Source of the DNA: Oceanisphaera pacifica | GTDB taxonomy: Bacteria > Pseudomonadota > Gammaproteobacteria > Enterobacterales > Aeromonadaceae | DNA: 64,000 bases | Assembly (NCBI RefSeq): GCF_017498065.1 | Contig: NZ_JAGDFX010000016.1 | Location: 1 to 64,000 of the forward strand | Reading direction: 5' to 3' | Part shown: one piece after another, positions 5,572 to 24,801 of the stretch | How positions within the stretch are numbered: the first letter of the stretch is position 1 | How the letters are laid out: each line of letters opens with the position of its first letter | Program-made: the position numbers and the translations under genes | The notes under the pieces: model-generated | The model's input: the letters and a program-made list of their open reading frames with translations, nothing else | Database searches by the model: none | What the model was told of the DNA's origin: nothing

Positions 5572-7503
5572 TCAATCAGAAAACATATAAGAAATAATAT
5601 TCACGGTATCTTCTACAACACCAGTTTCAGAAACTAACTTTCTAATTAAATCATTAGTTGCTAAGTGATATATTACTTCCTCTATTGTTAAATCTGTTCC
5701 TAGCTTTAACAGTTCAACCTTAAGTAGTAAAATTTCATTTTTATCTATCTTTTTTCTTAAGTATGTTAAAGGTCTAAGTCGTTCTCTTGCAGATATAAGA
5801 TATTTACTAACGTACAATGCGTCTACTGCATACCTTTTTTCCATATCATAAACATAATCATGAATTACATTATCACCAGTAAAATCTACAATGATAAGGT
5901 CTTTGCCAAGTGATGCTATCTTTATTTTTAATGCGTATGGTGTTCTAATTATCTCAGCATTAACTGCTTCAAATATTTTATTGGCGCGATCCCAAAGAGC
6001 TTTACCTGTAACTTCTTTTTCTTTATGCTTCTTATTATTACTTGATCTGAGTAATGCTTGACCTGTAGAGAATAGTAGATTAGGTAACGTTGGTGCAGAC
6101 TTCCCACCTTTTTCATTTGGTTTAACACCTGAATGACGAAGAACATCGTTTATTGAAAATGTTACATTTATTTTTGAGAAAGTTCTTTTACCAGTAACAA
6201 TAAGCTGTACTTTAAAGCCAAACAAATCTCGCTCAACTATAACAGGAGCTTGTCGTTTTGCATTTTTTCTTGCTTCTTTAAGAGTATCTTTAAGCTCAGC
6301 ACCTTGTGTTCTAACAAGAGCATTCATGAATCCTCTCTGAAATACGTACTCATCACTATCATCTAGAAGTATCGATGCTAAATCATTTTTACTTATAGAA
6401 ATTCCGTTAGGATTTAGTCTTTGCATCCTTTTTCTTAAATCCAAATACAAGCTAAAAATTTGCGTAGGCTCTTTAAATACAGATTCAGGAAAGGCAAATA
6501 GAAATTTATTATTAAATATAGCTTTAAATACAATTGGATGCCAAGCAATCTCATAAACAGCTGGGGAAACCATACTTTCATCGTTTAGTTCCATCGCTTG
6601 TTCTGATAGAGATGGAGTACTTTCTATGAATCTAAATTGATTATTTTTGAATAATTGACGGTCTTGATCATCAATAAATGGAGTTAACGAATGAACATCA
6701 TATTCTGTTGTTCTTAATTTTACAATTTGTCGCCATATATGCCTTCTATTACTTAGCTCACCAGGTCTTCTTCCTATCATTTCTAAAATAGTATCAGCAT
6801 AAATAGGAGTTAAGTTTGTTGCAGCTTCACCGCCTCGACTAAATGATGAGTGATAAGCTGTTTGGTATTGAATAGTATGTGATATTAAAGCATATAATGT
6901 TTTAATATCATCAACATCAATAATTCCATTACCACCTGATGCTATAACAATCGCTTTTTCTTTTTCTTGTCCAATATTAATAACAAATCGTCTATTATAA
7001 ATAACCGTATTAGCTGGAACACATAGTGCTGATAAATCTCCCAGAGGGAGTTTTATCATTACATTAACATCAGGCCCCTCTTTAAGTGGAGGCCTTTTTC
7101 TGTGTTTATCTTCGATTATTGTTTTAACACTTAAAGTATTTTTACGTCTAATATGAGGATTTACTTTATCTTCTTTATTGCTGATAGTTTTTTCATATTG
7201 TAGTAACCATATAATATTACTATTGATCTCTGTTTTTTCAAAAATAGCAGAGCGACGCAATCTAGCATACAGTGACTTTTTTTGAATCTGTAACACCTGT
7301 GCAACTAAGTCTATATCAGTAACGACGGTGTCTTTAGCTAAACCTATTACTGTAGGATCAAGCTTAGATTCGTGAGCAATTTCCATTGTTTTTTGGATTA
7401 GTTCTTGTGTCGCTTTAGTTTGGCTGCTGAACATTTCTGCAAGCTTTTTTGAGTCAACATTGACGAGCCCAAGGCTTATGTAGGTATTAGTCTTGCTAGT
7501 CAT
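5572..7503 (-). CDS. RctB-like replication initiator
   Basis: This 643-residue protein resembles RctB (658 aa), the initiator of Vibrio chromosome II. From memory of RctB, matches include VDDIKTLYALISHTIQYQ (residues 197-214; RctB VDDLMTLFALFTLTVQY), NLTPIYADTIL (230-240; NKTPLYITDIL), FSLYLDLRKRM (350-360; FQLYSYFRSRM) and APTLPN (470-475, identical). Length and order agree throughout. These lie in the winged-helix DNA-binding core and the regulatory C-terminal part of RctB. The gene is transcribed away from an iteron array about 290 bp upstream, which supports an initiator role. The codon usage is very AT-rich compared with the surrounding cargo. RctB-like initiators on plasmids are known but little studied; identity is by eye and should be confirmed by profile search. 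Confidence 0.8.
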   Translation of the reverse strand: MTSKTNTYISLGLVNVDSKKLAEMFSSQTKATQELIQKTMEIAHESKLDPTVIGLAKDTVVTDIDLVAQVLQIQKKSLYARLRRSAIFEKTEINSNIIWLLQYEKTISNKEDKVNPHIRRKNTLSVKTIIEDKHRKRPPLKEGPDVNVMIKLPLGDLSALCVPANTVIYNRRFVINIGQEKEKAIVIASGGNGIIDVDDIKTLYALISHTIQYQTAYHSSFSRGGEAATNLTPIYADTILEMIGRRPGELSNRRHIWRQIVKLRTTEYDVHSLTPFIDDQDRQLFKNNQFRFIESTPSLSEQAMELNDESMVSPAVYEIAWHPIVFKAIFNNKFLFAFPESVFKEPTQIFSLYLDLRKRMQRLNPNGISISKNDLASILLDDSDEYVFQRGFMNALVRTQGAELKDTLKEARKNAKRQAPVIVERDLFGFKVQLIVTGKRTFSKINVTFSINDVLRHSGVKPNEKGGKSAPTLPNLLFSTGQALLRSSNNKKHKEKEVTGKALWDRANKIFEAVNAEIIRTPYALKIKIASLGKDLIIVDFTGDNVIHDYVYDMEKRYAVDALYVSKYLISARERLRPLTYLRKKIDKNEILLLKVELLKLGTDLTIEEVIYHLATNDLIRKLVSETGVVEDTVNIISYMFSD

Positions 7504-7624
7504 CCAAAGTCAGATCCTAATCCAGTAAATTAATCAGATTGCATCGTAATTCATCATACAGCATTTTGGAAGCATTGCTTGTCATTTTTTGTAACTGATA
7601 ATCTTTATGAAGAGACGTTATAAA

Positions 7625-7660
7625 GATCATTATCTTTTGATCTTACTGATCTTACTGATC
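7625..7660. promoter_or_regulatory. Cluster of four Dam (GATC) sites
   Basis: GATC occurs at 7625, 7639, 7648 and 7657, four sites in 36 bp, within the AT-rich DNA between the initiator gene and the iterons. In Vibrio chromosome II, Dam methylation controls initiator binding and SeqA sequestration. A similar role here is inference. Confidence 0.55.
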
Positions 7661-7790
7661 TATTGATTACTTGATTAACTGATATTGATAGAGACAAAAA
7701 CATTCAGTATTACCTTAATACAAGGTTACTGTAACTTATTGAAAATAAGAGATTTAAAAGTTTTATATCTCATTTCACCTTTGCTTTTTC

Positions 7791-7930
7791 TGACAGGTTA
7801 CACCCATAACTCTGACAGCTACACTTCATAAAATGACAGTTACAGGCCATAACAGTGACAGCTACTTGCCATATTCATGACAGCTACCAGTCATAGCCCT
7901 GACAGTTACAAGTCATAAAATGACAGATAC
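7791..7930. repeat. Seven 21-22-bp iterons (replication origin)
   Basis: The core TGACAGYTAC (variants TGACAGGTTA and TGACAGATAC) recurs at 7791, 7813, 7834, 7856, 7878, 7900 and 7921. The spacing is 21 or 22 bp, two turns of the helix, so all copies face the same side. Most are followed by a CAT tail, giving TGACAGCTACNNRYCAT. They lie upstream of the initiator gene and are the likely initiator binding sites. Two DnaA-box-like sequences and AT-rich DNA follow immediately. Confidence 0.85.
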
Positions 7931-7959
7931 ACTAAACGGTATAACAGAAAATTAACAGC

Positions 7960-7979
7960 TTAACCACAGGTTACGCACA
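7960..7979 (+). promoter_or_regulatory. Two DnaA-box-like sites next to the iterons
   Basis: TTAACCACA (7960-7968) differs from the DnaA consensus TTATCCACA at one position, and TTACGCACA (7971-7979) at two. They are tandem, two bases apart, at the right edge of the iteron array and precede about 140 bp of AT-rich sequence suited to strand opening. Confidence 0.5.
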
Positions 7980-8127
7980 GATTTTATCGGCTTATATTGC
8001 AACGTAGATCACATAGTTATTTATGAATTTTTGTCGATATTTTATTTTTAGTGCTAAGCAGGGTATTACATCACGAATAGTAGAGTGCTTTTTAATCAAC
8101 TGCTGATTTTTATATTATGTGCGATTT

Positions 8128-8165
8128 TGACAGTTACCGGTCATAGCTCGCTATGACCGGTAGCT
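8128..8165. promoter_or_regulatory. Inverted iteron pair
   Basis: An iteron core (TGACAGTTAC) at 8128 begins an inverted repeat. AGTTACCGGTCATAGC (8132-8147) pairs with GCTATGACCGGTAGCT (8150-8165) with only one mismatch and a 2-base loop. Such inverted iterons in other plasmids act as operators for initiator autoregulation or as handcuffing sites. Here it lies about 200 bp beyond the direct iterons, away from the initiator gene. Confidence 0.6.
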
Positions 8166-8259
8166 AAATGATTGGGCAATAGATGTAGGTTGAAATACAA
8201 AAAATACTCACTCTAGGCAGAATTTACTGGGGTAGGTGTAGAGTAATGAGATGTTTGAG

Positions 8260-8346
8260 AAGTATAAATTTTTGCAAGCTTTTGCTGTCATGCGTTTGTA
8301 ACCGCTACTCAGTATCGCATTTATTTTTAGGTGTTTTTTTTAAACC
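8260..8346. repeat. Left flanking direct repeat of the 53-bp array
   Basis: About 85 bp here, from TATAAATTTTTGCAAG through TTGTAACCGCTAC to a T-run and AAACCC, recurs in the same orientation at about 9077-9168 (TATAAGTTTTTGCACG ... TTGTAACCGCTAC ... T8, AAACCC). Identity by eye is roughly 80 percent. The two copies bracket the 53-bp satellite. The T-run end resembles a terminator fragment, but no gene is seen. Confidence 0.65.
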
Positions 8347-8404
8347 CCACTACTCCAATGTACTGCTTTTTTTATGTACTACTTTCCTTGACGCTCCTCA
8401 ACTA

Positions 8405-8987
8405 TCAATCTGACTGCTATCAGCCATGGTACATGAGGGCTTGAGTGGGCTGTAGTATCAATTTGACAGCTACCAGTCATGGCACATGGGGACTTGAGTG
8501 GGCTGCAGTATCAATCTGACAGCTACCAGTCATGGTACATGGGGGCTTGAGTGGGCTGCGGTATCAATCTGACAGCTACCAGCCATGGTACATGGGAACT
8601 TGAGTGGGCTGCGGTATCAATCTGACAGCTACCAGCCATGGTATATGGGAGCTTGAGTGGGCTGCAGTATCAATCTGACAGCTACCAGCCATGGTACATG
8701 GGAACTTGAGTGGGCTGCGGTATCAATCTGACAGCTACCAGCCATGGTATATGGGAGCTTGAGTGGGCTGCAGTATCAATCTGACAGCTACCAGCCATGG
8801 TACATGGGAACTTGAGTGTGCTGCAGTATCAATCTGACAGCTACCAGCCATGGTATATGGGAACTTGAGTGGGCTGCAGTATCAATCTGACAGCTACCAG
8901 CCATGTTATATGGGAACTTGAGTGGGCTGCGGTATCAATCTGACAGCTACCAGCCATGGTACATGAGAGCTTGAATGGGCTGTGTAA
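8405..8987. repeat. Eleven 53-bp repeats containing iteron cores
   Basis: Units start at 8405 and then every 53 bp (8458, 8511, 8564, 8617, 8670, 8723, 8776, 8829, 8882, 8935). Each begins TCAATCTGACAGCTACCAG, carries CCATGGTACATGG or close variants and ends CTTGAGTGGGCTGCRGTA. The TGACAGCTACCAGYCAT part equals the origin iteron, so every unit offers one presumed initiator site at a five-turn spacing. Copies are nearly identical, with A/G and GGTA/TATA alternation, which suggests recent amplification. It is probably a copy-number or incompatibility locus that titrates the initiator. Confidence 0.9.
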
Positions 8988-9076
8988 GCAATAGGCGACG
9001 ACTAGTCAAAGTGCTTAAAGCTTGATTTATTAGCTATCTTTTGGTGTTTCTAAGTGTGTAAATAGAGCAATATTGG

Positions 9077-9168
9077 TTTATATAAGTTTTTGCACGCCTT
9101 TGCTGTCAGGGATTTGTAACCGCTACCACAGTATAGCTGCTGCTGGTGACGGTTTTTTTTAAACCCTA
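9077..9168. repeat. Right flanking direct repeat of the 53-bp array
   Basis: Partner of the repeat at 8260-8346 in the same orientation. Shared words include TTTGCTGTCA, TTGTAACCGCTAC, CAGTAT and the T8-AAACCC end. With the left copy it encloses the 53-bp satellite, as if that region arose by duplication of a longer origin-proximal unit. Confidence 0.65.
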
Positions 9169-9295
9169 TACCTTGAAGGAGAGGGTTTCATTAATTTTTC
9201 GCGGGGTATTAGCTCACATATTAAATAATGCTGATTGCTCATGTATAAAAAACAACCGATAGCAGGTGATATACATGTATAGCAAGAGAATTATC

Positions 9296-9427
9296 ATGCT
9301 AGAAATTCGTTTACCTCAAGACATAGAGTAGCGATTGGTGAGTTTAGCCGCTGATGTCAGTGCTCGTATCGCTCACGGTGAAGAAACCACTCATAGCACA
9401 GAAGAAGTAAGGGCAGCCTTGGCCTGA
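9296..9427 (+). pseudogene. RelB-like antitoxin remnant
   Basis: From ATG 9296 the frame reads MLEIRLPQDIE, then a TAG at 9329-9331, then RLVSLAADVSARIAHGEETT ending at TGA 9425. Without the stop it would be a 43-residue fragment typical of RelB/ParD-type antitoxins that precede RelE toxins. The nonsense codon and short length indicate decay. A toxin remnant follows directly. Confidence 0.65.
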
Positions 9428-9627
9428 ACGACTGAATACTCAAAACAGGCAATCAAAACGTTTAAAAAGATGAATAAACAAGCCGCGATACGTATCGTTG
9501 ATTACTTGCGTAGCTCCTCTTGGTGATCCGCGTACCTTGGGTTAAGCATTAAAGGGGGGAGCCTGGTGAGTTCTGGCGCTACCGTATGGGCGACTACCGT
9601 ATCGTGTAGGTATCTAAAAAAAGATTG
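9428..9627 (+). pseudogene. RelE-like toxin remnant
   Basis: The plus strand reads YSKQAIKTFKKMNKQAAIRI and VDYLR, the N-terminus of RelE-family toxins, then hits TGA. The rest appears in another frame as APLGDPRTLG, stop, ALKGGEPGEFWRYRMGDYRI, the conserved RelE C-terminal half with GEFWRYRxGDYRI. At least one frameshift and two stops make it inactive. Both partners of the toxin-antitoxin pair are dead, so it no longer stabilises the replicon. Confidence 0.75.
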
Positions 9628-9644
9628 AATGGGGATGAGGCATC

Positions 9645-9905
9645 ATGACACTACAAGAGCATGCCGCCAGATGGCGAGTAGTGAACGGCTATATCGGGAA
9701 AGGTGGTGTAGTGATCATTCATCAGGATAAAGTGCAGGGCTGGGTGAATGAGCTGCGTAATCCGGAGCATTGGGTGTCCGGTTGTACTGCCATTGACGAA
9801 CGAGGCCGCACGTGGACGGCAATCGCTGGCAATGATAATAACGGTGCACTATTTTGGTTACCTAGTCATCCGGTTGAGGGCGGTACGCGATCGCCGCTGC
9901 GGTAG
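9645..9905 (+). CDS. Hypothetical protein, 86 aa
   Basis: I do not recognise a family. ATG 9645 is preceded by GGGGATGAGG, a good ribosome binding site. The protein is soluble, with several Trp residues (WVNELRNPEHW, RTWTAIAGNDNNGALFW) and a sequence suggesting a small beta-rich fold; the ending is Arg-rich. It follows the relBE remnants and precedes a candidate parS site. An alternative frame (9748-9981) overlaps it but has unlikely composition. Confidence 0.6.
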   Translation: MTLQEHAARWRVVNGYIGKGGVVIIHQDKVQGWVNELRNPEHWVSGCTAIDERGRTWTAIAGNDNNGALFWLPSHPVEGGTRSPLR

Positions 9906-9976: not shown

Positions 9977-9993
9977 AGTAAACAGTGTTTACT
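9977..9993. promoter_or_regulatory. Candidate parS palindrome, site 1
   Basis: AGTAAACAGTGTTTACT is a perfect palindrome around a central base. The same 17-mer, or its C-centred twin, recurs beside parAB at 21220, 24440 and 24785. The flanks at 9954-10009 also match those at 24762-24817, about 86 percent over 56 bp. This copy is about 11 kb from parB. Confidence 0.7.
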
Positions 9994-12492: not shown

Positions 12493-15400
12493 CTAGTGCG
12501 TCCAAGCATTAGAGAGCACTTCTGCCTGCTTCAAGATCAGCTCTATCGCTGCTATCGCTTTATCTGGTGGGTATTTATAACGTTGCAGGGTGCGACGCAC
12601 CAGAATGCGTAACCGAGATCTTACGCTCTCTCGCACCTGCCAATCTACCGTTGTTGAGCGGCGCAGTTTATCAGTGATCTCAACCGCTATTTTTTTGAGA
12701 ACCTCATCACCCAACTCTCGGGCGGCACTTTCGTTATTGCTTAACGCATCATAAAACGCCACTTCATCAGGAGTTAACCCAAGCTCGGCTTCGCGCTCCA
12801 TTTCTTGCTGAAACTGCTTGGCCATGGCAATGAGCTCTTCGATCACTTGCGCGGTTTCTATGCCGCGGTTGTTGTACTTGCGCAGGGTTTCTTGCAGACG
12901 TTCGGCGTATTTTTTCTCTTGCACTACGTTGTTGTGGGTCTTGGCTTTAATGTCGTCTTTTAGCAGTTTTTCTAATAACTCAACGGCAAAATTTTTATAG
13001 GGCATGCTCCGCACATCATCTAAAAATTCATCAGATAATAAGCCAATGTTGGGCTTATCTAGCCCACATAAGGCAAACACATCGTCGACACCTTGAGCCA
13101 CTACCGCATTATCGAGGATTTGCTTTAGTGCTGTGTTCTTCTCTTCTTGGGTGAGCTTACGATCCACACTGGTATTTTTAGTGATGGCGGTTTTAATGGC
13201 GCTTAAAAAAGCAATTTCTTTGCGTAACGCTTTGGCTTCATCCAGTGTGGCACACAAAGAGAAAGCTTTAGTCATGGCCAATACTGCATCTAAGAAGCGT
13301 TTCTTGCCGTCTGGTAATCCTAAAATATGATTGGCGGTGGGCACTAATAGCTGATAGGCCTGGGTTTCAAACTCACTGTAATCAAAGCGCTCGTTGTCTG
13401 GCCCTTTGGCAAACATGCCACGAATAATATCCAGCTTCTCTAGCAAGATGGCGAATGCTTCTGCCGTATCATGAGTGGGCTCGCCGCGGCCTTTAGAGTC
13501 GGTGTAAGTTTTTAATGCCTGCTTAAGCTCATTAGCAATGCCAATATAATCCACCACTAAACCACCGGGCTTATCTTTAAACACGCGGTTTACTCGGGCG
13601 ATGGCTTGCATCAGATTGTGGCCCTTCATGGGTTTGTCCACATACATGGTATGACAAGCGGGTGCGTCAAAGCCGGTCAGCCACATATCGCGCACTATCA
13701 CTAGCTTAAGCGGATCATTTACGTCTTTAAAACGCTGCTCTAAGCGCTTTTTAGTTTGTTTATTGTAAATGTGCGGCTGCAATAACGGCTTATCAGAAGC
13801 TGAACCAGTCATGACCACTTTAATGCCACCCAGCTCGGGATCCGTGGAATGCCATTCTGGGCGAATAGCCACTATCTCGTTATACAGTTGCGCACAAATA
13901 TCACGGCTCATGGCCACTATCATGGCTTTACCGGCGATGGATGCATTGCGGGTTTCGTAGTGAGCCACTAAGTCTTCGGCAATTTGTTGTAAGCGCGGCT
14001 GAGAGCCCACTAATTTTTCTAGTCGGCTCCACTCGCCCTTAGTTTTTTCGCGGTTACCAGCATCTTCTTCGTCTTCTACCACTTCGTCTACTTGGTCGGA
14101 TAACTGATTAATTTCTTCTCGATTTAAGTCGAGCTTAGCCAGTCGCGACTCGTAATAGATAGGTACAGTTGCGCCGTCCTCTACCGCATCTTGAATGTCG
14201 TAGATAGACACATAATCGCCAAATACGGCGCGAGTGTCTTTGTCATCGTTAGCGATGGGCGTGCCGGTAAAACCAATAAAAGAGGCGAAGGGTAGGGCGT
14301 CACGCATGTGCTTGGCGTAACCAAACTTGTAACTGCCGTCCTCTTTTAACGTGGCTTTTAGACCATATTGGCTGCGGTGTGCTTCGTCCGATATCACCAC
14401 AATATTATGGCGAGCGTTTAACACTGGATGTTCGGTTTCGTCATTGAGCAGCGCAAACTTTTGCACCGTAGTAAAAATAATGCCGCCAGCTTCGCGCGCG
14501 GCCAATAACTCGCGCAAGCTGTCGCGATCGTGAGCTTGCATGGGATCTTGTTTTAGTAACTCGTTTGTGCTGCTAAAGGTGGAAAACAGCTGACCATCAA
14601 GATCGTTGCGATCTGTTACCACAATAATGGTTGGGTTATTCATTTCAGGCTGTTGTATGAGTTTGCCCGCATAACAACACATTGAAATACTCTTGCCCGA
14701 CCCTTGTGTGTGCCATACCACACCGGCTTTTTTACTGCCTGGCTCTATTTCACTGCCGTAGCTAGCACGGCGGTTAGCGACCATGCCAAGGCTTGGCTCT
14801 TGGGCAGCAATCACAGTCGCGTTTACCGCCTCGCGCACCGCGTGAAACTGATGATATCCGGCTATTTTTTTGATCAACTTGCCGGCGTCGGTTTCAAACA
14901 ACACAAAGTAGCGAATATAGTCGAGCAGCATTTCTCGGTCGAAAAAGCCACGGACCATGGTTTCTAGTTGCCATTCCAATAATGGTTTATCGTCTTCATG
15001 CTTAATGGTGCGCCACGGCATAAAGCGCTCTTGGTTAGCGGTAAGCGAACCCACCCGAGCGGTATAGCCATCGCTAACCACCAGTGCTTCGTTGTATACA
15101 AATAAGTCTGACACTTCATCTTTATAGGTTTGCAGCTGATTAAAGGCCGCCCACACATCGGCATTGTCACTACTGGGGCTTTTCAGCTCTAACACTGCCA
15201 ACGGTAACCCATTGATAAAACAGACTACATCGGGACGACGTAGCTGTTTGCTACCGGAAATAGTGAACTGATTAATGGCACGAAAACGGTTGGCGTCTAA
15301 CTGTTCAAAATCAATGAGAAAGGCATGGTCGTGAACTTGTTTATCGTCACGCTTATATTCTACTGGCACGCCTTCAAGCAGTAAGCGGTGAAAAGCACGG

Positions 15401-21212: not shown

Positions 21213-21243
21213 CAAAGTTAGTAAACAGTGTTTACTAACTTTG
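21213..21243. promoter_or_regulatory. Candidate parS palindrome, site 2 (31 bp)
   Basis: A perfect 31-bp palindrome: CAAAGTTAGTAAACA, central G, then its inverse TGTTTACTAACTTTG. It contains the 17-bp core AGTAAACAGTGTTTACT at 21220-21236. It lies 153 bp beyond the parB stop. It could double as a transcription terminator, but it lacks a T-run and the core recurs elsewhere without long arms. Confidence 0.75.
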
Positions 21244-21395: not shown

Positions 21396-22571
21396 CTAAT
21401 CGTTGGTAGTGCTTTCCATTGCTGCCAAATACTGGGCAACCATTTTTTTTATTTCTGCCATTTGTGATTCTGGGAGCTTACGGAATGTCATTTTCATCCC
21501 ATCTTTTACCGTCGTACTAGTTACAATTGACTCTCGTCCTGTAAATACTGACTCACTGGTTTCTTGAACTTCTGGGGTCGGTGCTAGCGTCGCAAAGGCT
21601 TCTGTTATTTCTGCTCTCGCTGCGTTATCAATAACCCGAATAACTGTTTCAGATAATCCAAGCAACTCGACCATTTCGGGAAGCTCCATCAACTGAGCCA
21701 AGTTTTCGCAGGCTATTACCGGTGCGAGTTCATTATCAACAAACTCACTTTGCTCTAGCATTAATGCTCTTGTCTGCTTTACTGCTCGCTCTAACTGTAT
21801 GTCTTTAACGCTAATATTAGCGGCTAGTTTTTCCGGTTTAAGCGACTTTATAAACTCTAAAAGTTCTTTATCAAACTTTAACTCTTGGGCTTGAGACCAC
21901 ATAGTCCTATAAGCATTGATTCGTGGGCGTCCTAAATCAAAGCCACTAGCGTGTGCTTGGTAAAACTCTTTTGGTAGCAAGTATGCATCTCTTGCTTGAT
22001 ACACTTTGACCTTACTTATACCTTCTTGGCGTGCTATCTCTACCGGCGACACTCCTTTATCAATAAGGAGTGTGTATTGCTTCCCTTGCTCATACTGTGA
22101 TAATTGCTTATAGACGTTGCCAATCTCTGAAAGATACCGAGCTGTTTTCTCATCAACTAGCGGACTAGTGGTGATATACATATAGTAAGGACGTTTGGTA
22201 ATTATACAGGTTGCGCGACGACGAGAGCCGTCCAGTGCTTCATAGCGGCCATCAGGTAATTGGCGACCTATAGCTGGAAACGTCATGCCGTGTTTGCGTA
22301 CAGACGGTATCAAGTCACGCAATGCAAATGTGTTTAATGCTTCTTGAATTCTGCCATTACCACTAAAGACTGTCGTTTTTTTCTCGATATCTTCTGGTTG
22401 TATGGTAATTAATTTGAACGTTACTTCTTTTTCATTACCTAAGTTTAAGGTGATTTCTGACTTCTGTTGATGTGCTTGTTGAGCAAATACGTCTTTTGCT
22501 CCTTCTTTCTCCAGCTCAGCCATACTAGTCACGGCGCCGGGAGTAAATGCTTGGCGTCTTACTTTTTTCAT
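21396..22571 (-). CDS. parB: ParB-like partition protein
   Basis: A 391-residue centromere-binding protein. The ParB/RepB N-terminal domain is seen as LIPSVRKHGMTFPAIGRQL and the GSRRRATC box (about 155-162). A helix-turn-helix follows (VSPVEIARQEGISKVKVYQA, about 216-235). The C-terminal third is helical and variable, ending in a probable dimerisation segment. It follows parA with 66 bp between. Four 17-bp palindromes close to the operon, two on each side, are the likely DNA targets. Length is larger than chromosomal ParB and fits plasmid and secondary-chromosome type Ia partition proteins. Confidence 0.85.
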   Translation of the reverse strand: MKKVRRQAFTPGAVTSMAELEKEGAKDVFAQQAHQQKSEITLNLGNEKEVTFKLITIQPEDIEKKTTVFSGNGRIQEALNTFALRDLIPSVRKHGMTFPAIGRQLPDGRYEALDGSRRRATCIITKRPYYMYITTSPLVDEKTARYLSEIGNVYKQLSQYEQGKQYTLLIDKGVSPVEIARQEGISKVKVYQARDAYLLPKEFYQAHASGFDLGRPRINAYRTMWSQAQELKFDKELLEFIKSLKPEKLAANISVKDIQLERAVKQTRALMLEQSEFVDNELAPVIACENLAQLMELPEMVELLGLSETVIRVIDNAARAEITEAFATLAPTPEVQETSESVFTGRESIVTSTTVKDGMKMTFRKLPESQMAEIKKMVAQYLAAMESTTND

Positions 22572-22637: not shown

Positions 22638-23867
22638 TTACTGTGTGTCAACTTGGTCCAGCACTGAAATATCTAATAACCCCCACCGATTAAGTAACAT
22701 CCCTTCAATTTCAGCCAGCACTCGGTAAAACTCGGCTTGGGCGTTTCTAAGGGATACTTTGCCTTTGTGGTACTCGTGGGGGGAGTACTCATAAATAGTA
22801 GACATTTGAGTAGAGCAATGTTTTACCGCTTCTGAATTAATAAACTCTGAATTCATCATAAAATGGCCGAATTTTTGACGGTAAATTTCAGTACTTTGTA
22901 CTTCAGCTTGTGAGCGACGGTCAAAGCGTGTCACTAGCATTTTTATATTGTCGTAACCCTTATGGCCAGCAAGCTCCAGTCGCTCATAAATTCGCGTCAT
23001 GGAGCGTAAGTATTTGCCTGTGGCATCTTGATCGTTTTGGTGAGCTTGTACTGGGATGAGGATGCTATTTGCTGCATAGAGTGCGTTCATTACCTTATAG
23101 TCAAGGCTTGGGCCAGTATCAATTAAGATGATGTCGAAGTCATTACGTACTGCTTCAATCACTTTCTCTAAGTGGCTATAAGGGTTAAAGTTTTTGCCAT
23201 GCTCTCGAGACTTATCCTGCATCCATAGTTCAACATAGTTGTCATCGACACTAGCAGGGAGAACACGAAGGTTAGGTACGTTGGTTGGCAAGAAGGCGTT
23301 GTTGCATACATCTGTATAAGTTACACCTTCACTTAACTCATACCCCTCAGTCATTAAATCCCCTACAGTTAGCATATTGTCACTATCAAACTGGGGAGCT
23401 AAATACATAGTTGCTGTGCCTTGAGGGTCACAATCAATAATGCCGATCCGGTATTCATTTTTAAGTTGAACGGCCAAGCCTACACCGGCAGTTACAGTGG
23501 TCATAGTCTTAGCAGCACCACCTTTTAAGTTTGCAATGGTGATGACAAGAGGGTTAACGTCCGATGGTGCTTCCCATCTCTCTTTAAGTACATGACGACG
23601 TAATTCTTGTAGCTGGGGAAAAGTAATAGACCAGCGAGCGCCACCTTCTTTAGGGTCAATTCCAAGCTCAGCAATGCGCTTATTTAACGTTCGACTATTA
23701 ATCCCTCCTAAATCTTCACATACCTCAGACTGGTTATAATTACGAAAGAACTTCCCGTTAGGTGCGTCACCATCTTCAGTTAAAAAGTTACGCTGTTCGC
23801 GTGAAAGGCTTTCAGCTACTCGGGCAAGTTGCTCAATTTTTTGCAGTGTGCTTTTACCTGCGTCCAT
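22638..23867 (-). CDS. parA: ParA-like partition ATPase
   Basis: A type Ia ParA of 409 residues. The N-terminal about 100 residues form an HTH-containing domain (NYNQSEVCEDLGGINSRTLN) that usually autoregulates the operon. The deviant Walker A motif is KGGAAKT (about 115-121), followed by IIDCDPQGTATMYL and IILIDTGPSLDY. ATG 23867 has GGAG just upstream and is preferred over the TTG at 23879. With parB it should segregate the replicon. It resembles P1 ParA and Vibrio chromosome II ParA in architecture. Confidence 0.92.
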   Translation of the reverse strand: MDAGKSTLQKIEQLARVAESLSREQRNFLTEDGDAPNGKFFRNYNQSEVCEDLGGINSRTLNKRIAELGIDPKEGGARWSITFPQLQELRRHVLKERWEAPSDVNPLVITIANLKGGAAKTMTTVTAGVGLAVQLKNEYRIGIIDCDPQGTATMYLAPQFDSDNMLTVGDLMTEGYELSEGVTYTDVCNNAFLPTNVPNLRVLPASVDDNYVELWMQDKSREHGKNFNPYSHLEKVIEAVRNDFDIILIDTGPSLDYKVMNALYAANSILIPVQAHQNDQDATGKYLRSMTRIYERLELAGHKGYDNIKMLVTRFDRRSQAEVQSTEIYRQKFGHFMMNSEFINSEAVKHCSTQMSTIYEYSPHEYHKGKVSLRNAQAEFYRVLAEIEGMLLNRWGLLDISVLDQVDTQ

Positions 23868-23894
23868 GTGACTCTCCAAGTTCCTGGTATGTAT

Positions 23895-24437: not shown

Positions 24438-24458
24438 AAGTAAACACTGTTTACTTTA
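24438..24458. promoter_or_regulatory. Candidate parS palindrome, site 4
   Basis: AAAGTAAACACTGTTTACTTT is a 21-bp perfect palindrome around C. Core AGTAAACACTGTTTACT at 24440-24456. About 570 bp upstream of parA. Confidence 0.7.
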
Positions 24459-24784: not shown

Positions 24785-24801
24785 AGTAAACAGTGTTTAC
24801 T
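24785..24801. promoter_or_regulatory. Candidate parS palindrome, site 5
   Basis: AGTAAACAGTGTTTACT, identical to sites 1 and 2. Its flanks (24762-24817) match those of site 1 at 9954-10009 in the same orientation, with eight differences over 56 bp. Confidence 0.7.

Follow-up and report, generated by a model that had tools for sequence, protein, structure and literature searches.

The RctB-family replicon of Oceanisphaera pacifica carries a 53-bp tandem satellite that repeats the core of the replicon's own origin iterons, an observation confirmed here. The best reading is of recently expanded iterons with a putative role in copy number or incompatibility, and it is strengthened because the same arrangement, each time with a plasmid-specific core, occurs in eight other RctB-plasmid lineages. 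By analogy with known control iterons, the satellite probably serves its RctB-family plasmid as a control (incompatibility) locus at which the initiator is titrated or handcuffed. The interpretation offered by the first-pass annotation of this DNA is partly supported overall.

The satellite and its replicon

The window is the whole 64,000-nucleotide stretch that was analysed, bases 1-64000 of an 89,549-bp contig in a 3.1-Mb genome. Judging from its genes and sites, the contig is taken to be a plasmid because it combines an RctB-family initiator, a ParA/ParB pair and exact parS-like palindromes found on this contig only. It is not closed, since a scripted comparison of the contig ends detected no exact terminal overlap of 15-200 bp. 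A 56-bp tandem repeat of 8.3 copies occupies positions 1-463, at the contig start, and is perhaps the reason assembly stops there. Broken reading frames of 143, 129 and 117 aa follow at 527-2069 and presumably resemble pieces of transposases. The features relevant to the satellite are:

5572..7503, minus strand: replication initiator of the RctB family, 643 aa (PF11826 and 5ubf matches)
7791..7937, plus strand: seven origin iterons, spaced 21-22 bp (repeat finding)
7960..7968, plus strand: DnaA-box-like TTAACCACA, one mismatch, just past the origin iterons
8128..8165, plus strand: lone iteron and inverted half-site forming a palindrome between origin and satellite (16-nt arms, 94% complementary)
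8263..8347, plus strand: left copy of the imperfect direct repeat found on both sides of the satellite
8403..8982, plus strand: 53-bp iteron satellite of 10.9 units, each with one core (Tandem Repeats Finder, core matches)
9081..9166, plus strand: right copy of the flanking repeat, 77% identical to the left copy
9978..9992, no strand assigned: parS-like palindrome GTAAACAGTGTTTAC, some 1 kb past the satellite
21396..22571, minus strand: ParB-like partition gene (PRK13698, TIGR00180)
22638..23879, minus strand: ParA-like partition ATPase gene (PF13614, E 1.5e-26)

The initiator matches the RctB_central domain (PF11826) with an E value of 1.8e-23 and 83.7 bits against a cut-off of 27, and its residues 159-372 match the V. 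cholerae RctB structure 5ubf (E 5.1e-25). The domain match places it in the RctB family, and the second mark of an RctB plasmid, evenly spaced iterons with a DnaA box upstream of the initiator gene, is also present. The ParB-like gene matches NCBIfam PRK13698 at E 3.4e-26, below the cut-off of that model, and TIGR00180 at 58.4 bits against a cut-off of 58.45. The closest relative found is plasmid pA of Oceanisphaera sp. IT1-181, whose initiator is 56% identical. Positions 7601-9300 had no DNA match in the plasmid collection, and the initiator had none among phage records or viral contigs. Against the genome contigs collection, the initiator as a single protein returned no match, and a four-row initiator alignment returned one, in Aliivibrio sp. 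S3MY1. PF11826 recovered only the window's own match across 369 genomes of the class, despite which an alignment search across the order matched 37 of 394 genomes.

Moving away from rep, the order is origin iterons, DnaA-like box, lone iteron palindrome, left repeat, satellite and right repeat, with the satellite 900-1479 bp from the rep start. As had been proposed, the origin iterons are spaced at 21-22 bp: the seven start at 7791, 7813, 7834, 7856, 7878, 7900 and 7921 (spacings 22, 21, 22, 22, 22 and 21). The proposed 53-bp period of the satellite was recovered by Tandem Repeats Finder with 10.9 copies, 93% matches and no indels. The first-pass annotation had also stated that eleven units each contain the core; ten carry it exactly (TGACAGCTACCAGYCAT), and the first, at 8411, has the degenerate form TGACTGCTATCAGCCAT. 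The cores lie on the same strand as the origin iterons. Across the 3.1-Mb genome, the core pattern TGACAGNTACNNGNCAT has 15 matches, ten of them inside the satellite. This clustering is not due to chance, because all 15 lie on the plus strand of this contig at 7834-8957 and the reversed pattern has no match genome-wide. As in control iterons, the satellite has the putative initiator-binding core of the origin and yet sits outside it. In the interval 7504-9644, no open reading frame of at least 60 aa was found on either strand, and no Rfam family reached its gathering score at 7400-9700.

The suggestion of recent expansion is borne out by units 4-5, which equal units 6-7 across 106 bp without a mismatch; on the sequence, units 4-7 record a two-unit duplication. 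The span of 8260-9168 first given to the satellite takes in the array proper together with its flanking repeats, and the imperfect direct repeat of about 85-86 bp around the array was likewise recovered (77% identity, E 4.4e-11). No third copy of this repeat was found genome-wide at E <= 0.001 (two further rows are 20-base matches, E 0.92), and the best E values against 3 kb of pA sequence upstream of rep were 0.08 for the left copy and 0.43 for the right. With two genome copies only at that threshold and no significant match in this stretch of pA, the repeat was rejected as a mobile-element end or a general feature. In the lone-iteron palindrome, the GACAG part is missing from the inverted half-site; the palindrome is possibly an operator or a counterpart of the 39-mer of V. 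cholerae. A similar-looking arrangement lies between origin and array in pA, where TGACAGCGGGTTAAGAG is followed by an inverted TTAAGAGCT.

One alternative places the array within the active origin, as a second set of activating long iterons. According to the accessible part of PMC8490738, R478 RepHI2 has 80-81-bp repeats that were described as iterons and for which cloning suggested functional activity. In the window, however, a stretch of 59% A+T with seven iterons spaced 21-22 bp and a DnaA-like box looks like a complete origin by itself, and the array has 51% G+C and no DnaA box at up to one mismatch. We regard an activating role as very unlikely.

A partition site has to be weighed as well. 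The palindrome GTAAACASTGTTTAC has four exact sites in the genome, every one on this contig: those at 21221-21235, 24440-24454 and 24786-24800 surround parAB, and that at 9978-9992 lies about 1 kb past the satellite. With up to two mismatches, the window holds five parS-like sites against 0.13 expected. Tandem arrays are common centromeres, and the single palindrome 1 kb from the array fits such a role. Yet the array is 12 kb from parAB, around which the separate contig-only palindromes cluster; pA has an analogous pair of similar palindromes adjoining parB; and the array core matches the iterons of the initiator, not the parS-like palindromes. The array is probably not a centromere, and we give this role a very slim chance.

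Arrays of other kinds were seen near partition genes. In pA (L006), a 33-bp array of 8.7 copies with TGTGTGTCACAGCACACA lies at 12504-12790, about 2.4 kb from parA, and overlaps an annotated hypothetical gene. Two Photobacterium plasmids carry palindromic-core arrays near ParB or AAA-ATPase (ParA-like) genes, one from 2761 bp downstream of rep on (L081) and the other 3281-3940 bp upstream of rep (L094). These two are possible centromeres, unlike the iteron satellites.

Iteron arrays in RctB-family relatives

The sample comprised 30 RctB-family records: the window, 20 records from the plasmid collection and nine genome stretches. The plasmid records were chosen from overlapping match lists of 24 and 34 records; most large Chr2-like records and several near-duplicates were left out, and NZ_AP027047 was taken by its upstream piece only. 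Two of the 30 are Chr2-type (G575 and G790), and L095-L098 are cut by contig ends to 701-1508 bp of upstream sequence. In 28 of the 30, the first 600 bp upstream of rep include a DnaA box with at most one mismatch. Genes annotated as 'DNA replication terminus site-binding protein' (Tus-like) were noticed near the RctB-type initiator in three records (L007 9832-10812, L088 1305-2306 and L092 1222-2211).

Arrays and origins were compared in both directions. From array to origin, Tandem Repeats Finder arrays of period at least 28 bp and at least three copies, starting more than 480 bp and lying within 4 kb upstream of rep, were taken with nested periods merged; L089 was not included, since its 44-bp array consists of the iterons themselves. 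From each array, the 10-mer with the most occurrences in the origin stretch of that replicon was compared with 60 dinucleotide shuffles. Among the 26 long-period arrays tested, 13 (in 12 records) have a 10-mer that occurs at least three times in their own origin, as against 0/60 shuffles each. Eight of these 10-mers were matched by none of 29 other origins and five by one of 29, presumably that of a sister record. The other 13 arrays did not pass: those of L007, L085, L094, L102 and L103, two of L083, the 55-bp arrays of L081 and L105, the 47-bp arrays of L093 and L106, the 40-bp array of L099 and a second 141-bp array of L106.

From origin to array, the region 0.47-4 kb upstream was searched with the origin-iteron motif, the threshold being set to give 0.5 hits per shuffled stretch. 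These calibrated thresholds were a second try; with its few training sites, the first scan was too strict and missed arrays visible by eye. Tandem matches at a constant period lie upstream of rep in 13 of the 29 testable records (30 sampled), namely the window, L006, L007, L081, L082, L093, L095, L096, L097, L098, L099, L105 and L106. Dispersed matches occur in four, two from V. nigripulchritudo (L091, L104) and two of Chr2 type (L100, L101). No iteron-bearing array was found in 12 of the 29, which have at most three motif matches and no constant period, and such an array is therefore not essential in the family. Nine of these 12 have at least four origin iterons, and five carry a long-period array without the core.

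Iteron positions were set by hand in L007, L095 and L096 after the arrays had been seen, the automatic finder having taken another seed. In L096, a recount blind to the array returned the same word, with five sites 22-23 bp apart and four outer matches on the plus strand against none on the minus; its outer stretch is only 231 bp and its threshold 2.6 bits, at which the motif scan gave four hits on each strand. For L007 and L095, the blind recount did not single out the hand-chosen word, and its top word finds no array. The A. wodanis-type lineage formed by these two is supported by the hand-chosen word, which has 13 hits in L007, and by L095 in the array-to-origin test, with three matches (0/60 shuffles); L007 gave two there (3/60). 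Once sisters are merged, the 13 array-bearing records form nine lineages, eight of them without hand-chosen words or with these confirmed. The merged pairs are L007/L095 (initiators 98.9% identical), L097/L098 (84.6%), L081/L105 (identical initiator gene) and L093/L106 (upstream regions 91% identical across 2.8 kb). In a tree built from 34 initiators, of which 11 come with satellites, at least five changes of the satellite label are needed; several branches are long and the deep order is unsure.

The core-bearing arrays start 0.5-1.2 kb upstream of rep, past the origin iterons, and mostly share their orientation. Exceptions are a second V. penaeicida array (18 hits on the other strand) and G506 (low threshold, both strands); the 55-bp array of P. 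damselae is perhaps also opposite (two matches). The second V. penaeicida satellite (plasmid L082) lies 1661-2334 bp upstream of rep and has a period of 81 bp, with the iteron core about every 40 bp and opposite in orientation to the origin.

Array periods among the relatives range from 34 to 141 bp. The first-pass annotation had emphasized a strict five-turn period. As a rule, helical phasing had to be dropped: 11 hand-entered core-to-core periods of 34-141 bp gave a mean cosine of -0.06 (Rayleigh p about 0.25), with 53 and 42 bp being near-integral numbers of turns. At E <= 0.01, array consensuses are dissimilar between plasmids, except for sister records and the pair L102/L103. By this comparison, cores are plasmid-specific and spacers unrelated, so that it is the core that is retained.

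Conservation within arrays was compared between core columns and circularly shifted masks, with core words chosen after origin and array had been seen. The core is better conserved than nearly all shifts in five of 12 arrays, the more diverged ones: V. penaeicida 66-bp (rank 1/66) and 81-bp (4/81), G551 (1/39), V. vulnificus 141-bp (2/141) and P. damselae 46-bp (4/46). The other seven are uninformative or opposite: the window array (17/53), L006 (37/42), L007 (11/34), the L081 55-bp array (55/55), L096 (47/47), L098 (19/38) and L099 (31/55). Unit number also changes in nature. Two plasmids of P. damselae that share the same initiator gene are identical over 1,214 bp before and 515 bp after their 46-bp arrays, yet the arrays differ by 138 bp, exactly three units. 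Among the relatives, 141-bp arrays count 16.1 units in V. vulnificus and 15.2 in V. parahaemolyticus.

These data bear on a neutral origin, in which slippage or unequal crossing-over duplicated an iteron-bearing stretch whose length then drifted without function. Near-identical units, the exact two-unit duplication in the window, the three-unit difference in P. damselae and the seven arrays without core-over-spacer conservation are in line with such drift. However, satellites with plasmid-specific cores recur in nine lineages on one side of the origin, mostly in the orientation of its iterons, and in five arrays the core is better conserved than the spacer. We consider a neutral satellite unlikely.

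Proposed function

The control-locus reading builds on direct observations of a shared core, position, orientation and recurrence, and of a unit-number change in a related plasmid. The identity of the sequences suggests that the RctB-like initiator binds not only the origin iterons but also the core of each 53-bp unit. On the model of F incC, P1 incA and V. cholerae ori2-inc, the eleven extra sites, against seven at the origin, would take up initiator, and the bound array may handcuff with the origin through initiator-initiator contacts. Initiation would thereby be restrained until the cell has grown. The strength of this brake might be easily tuned because the sites sit in a tandem satellite, where their number can change in one recombination step. 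The open-licence literature yielded no reports of binding, copy number or incompatibility for arrays in RctB-family plasmids.

Work on V. cholerae gives grounds for a brake and also for a different effect. In the sections of PMC6090056 available, ori2-inc lowers copy number (ori2-min alone reaches about tenfold more copies than the whole ori2), and inhibition comes mainly from a 39-mer that does not resemble the iterons. The accessible text of PMC3937223 states that oriII copy number falls when a plasmid supplies additional RctB sites. The ori2-inc iterons act both ways, since they titrate RctB and also restrain the 39-mer (PMC6090056, same sections). The array could thus bind the initiator with a main effect other than inhibition, storing it or pairing with inhibitory sites and so relieving the origin, as ori2-inc iterons can; the lone iteron with its inverted half-site, between origin and array, could be such an inhibitory site. 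Against this, the window shows no established 39-mer equivalent, and in F and FIB replicons a separate iteron block is the inhibitor, on the evidence of the available portion of PMC11983097. A mainly non-inhibitory array seems unlikely to us.

If the satellite is indeed a control locus, a broader generalization may be ventured, tentatively and with more doubt than confidence. Iteron satellites might be a general and rapidly evolving rheostat of large plasmids, those of the RctB family and some others, in which lineages rebuild the satellite from their own diverging core, copy number and the strength of incompatibility follow from unit number through titration and handcuffing, and recombination allows retuning within a population in the manner of a contingency locus. 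Chr2-type chromids would then show the other solution, in which this place is taken by dispersed GATC iterons and 39-mers. To our knowledge, most of what is known about control iterons comes from a few close-spaced examples. Nine RctB-plasmid lineages with own-core arrays of very different periods upstream of the initiator gene, and one natural pair three units apart, form a convenient series in which to study how copy number and incompatibility depend on the number and spacing of initiator sites. The series also bears on the divergence of incompatibility groups and on changes from plasmid to chromid.

Comparison with known systems

The first system for comparison is chromosome 2 of V. cholerae, whose ori2-inc shares with the window an RctB-family initiator, extra initiator sites (predicted in the window) beyond the minimal origin and a parS nearby; we infer that it occupies the same place as the core-bearing arrays. 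It differs in that Chr2 iterons carry GATC and form no tandem satellite, whereas the window shows the reverse, with no GATC in the satellite or in the iterons, and so falls outside the Chr2 type as defined by GATC-containing TGATCA iterons. As a 39-mer/29-mer counterpart, only the inverted-iteron palindrome at 8128-8165 was seen, without use of a 39-mer model. According to the sections of PMC6090056 available, parS2 lies near ori2-inc and ParB2 competes with RctB there. An analogous interplay of ParB and initiator at 9978 is possible.

The contrast extends to 59 loci, the best-scoring ones from initiator searches and not a random draw. Long-period arrays were present in five, all plasmid-type (L020-L024), and upstream of none of the 54 Chr2-type loci, 52 of which have 1.0-1.4 kb of upstream sequence; L033 and L065 are short upstream, the start codon of L044 is misplaced, and arrays starting beyond about 1 kb would escape. 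TGATCA occurs in 6-11 copies within 600 bp in 52 of the 54, the other two being cut short.

As a class, long-period iteron arrays are already known, and precedents answer the remark in the first-pass annotation that it knew of no iteron satellite of this form. The precedents, as given in the accessible part of PMC8490738, are pALWED1.1, with ten 83-84-bp tandem repeats of constant number 830 bp from the start of rep, and R478, cited there for twelve 80-81-bp iterons about 500 bp from repHI2. The available parts of PMC8826520 note RctB-domain initiators on Vibrionales plasmids and leave satellites unmentioned, and the open-licence literature searched, as far as its text was accessible, held no recognizable description of satellites in RctB-family plasmids. 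Nor was a description found there of their recurrence in RctB plasmids, their match to each plasmid's own short iterons or natural change in unit number.

F incC, FIB and P1 incA resemble the window in having a second iteron block separate from the origin; they differ in that their iterons lie beyond the 3' end of rep and form no long-period satellite. The iterons of F incC, FIB downstream and P1 incA are close-spaced, and the P1 incA block, apart from the origin, inhibits replication by handcuffing. In F and FIB replicons, too, the separate block inhibits by handcuffing, and the FIB downstream block alone displaces the plasmid (PMC11983097, available portion).

Among long-period systems, the pALWED1.1-type Acinetobacter mega-plasmids share long repeats close to rep. 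The relative pAHTJR1 has an 84-bp array of 9.8 copies, next to which no cluster of 22-bp iterons was detected, in contrast to the window. R478 (IncHI2) comes nearer in design: like its RepHI2 array, the window satellite lies within about 1 kb of rep and contains the short-iteron core. In R478 (L128, L129), short 21-22-bp iterons (21-bp period at 261593-261663) and an 81-bp array of 10.2 copies at 258949-259777 have the core TCACTACCRNTGTCA in common, chosen after both had been seen. It has 13 matches, all at 258440-261996, and none in the 12 other pieces scanned, with 762 bases unscanned. R478 differs from the window in that its array lies beyond the 3' end of rep with cores on both strands, and its initiator, annotated RepHI2, had no match to the Rep_3 profile. 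The pA plasmid shows the window's own design, 22-bp iterons followed by a satellite with its own core GACAGCTC, and differs in a period of 42 bp, 7.6 copies and a spacer unrelated to that of the window.
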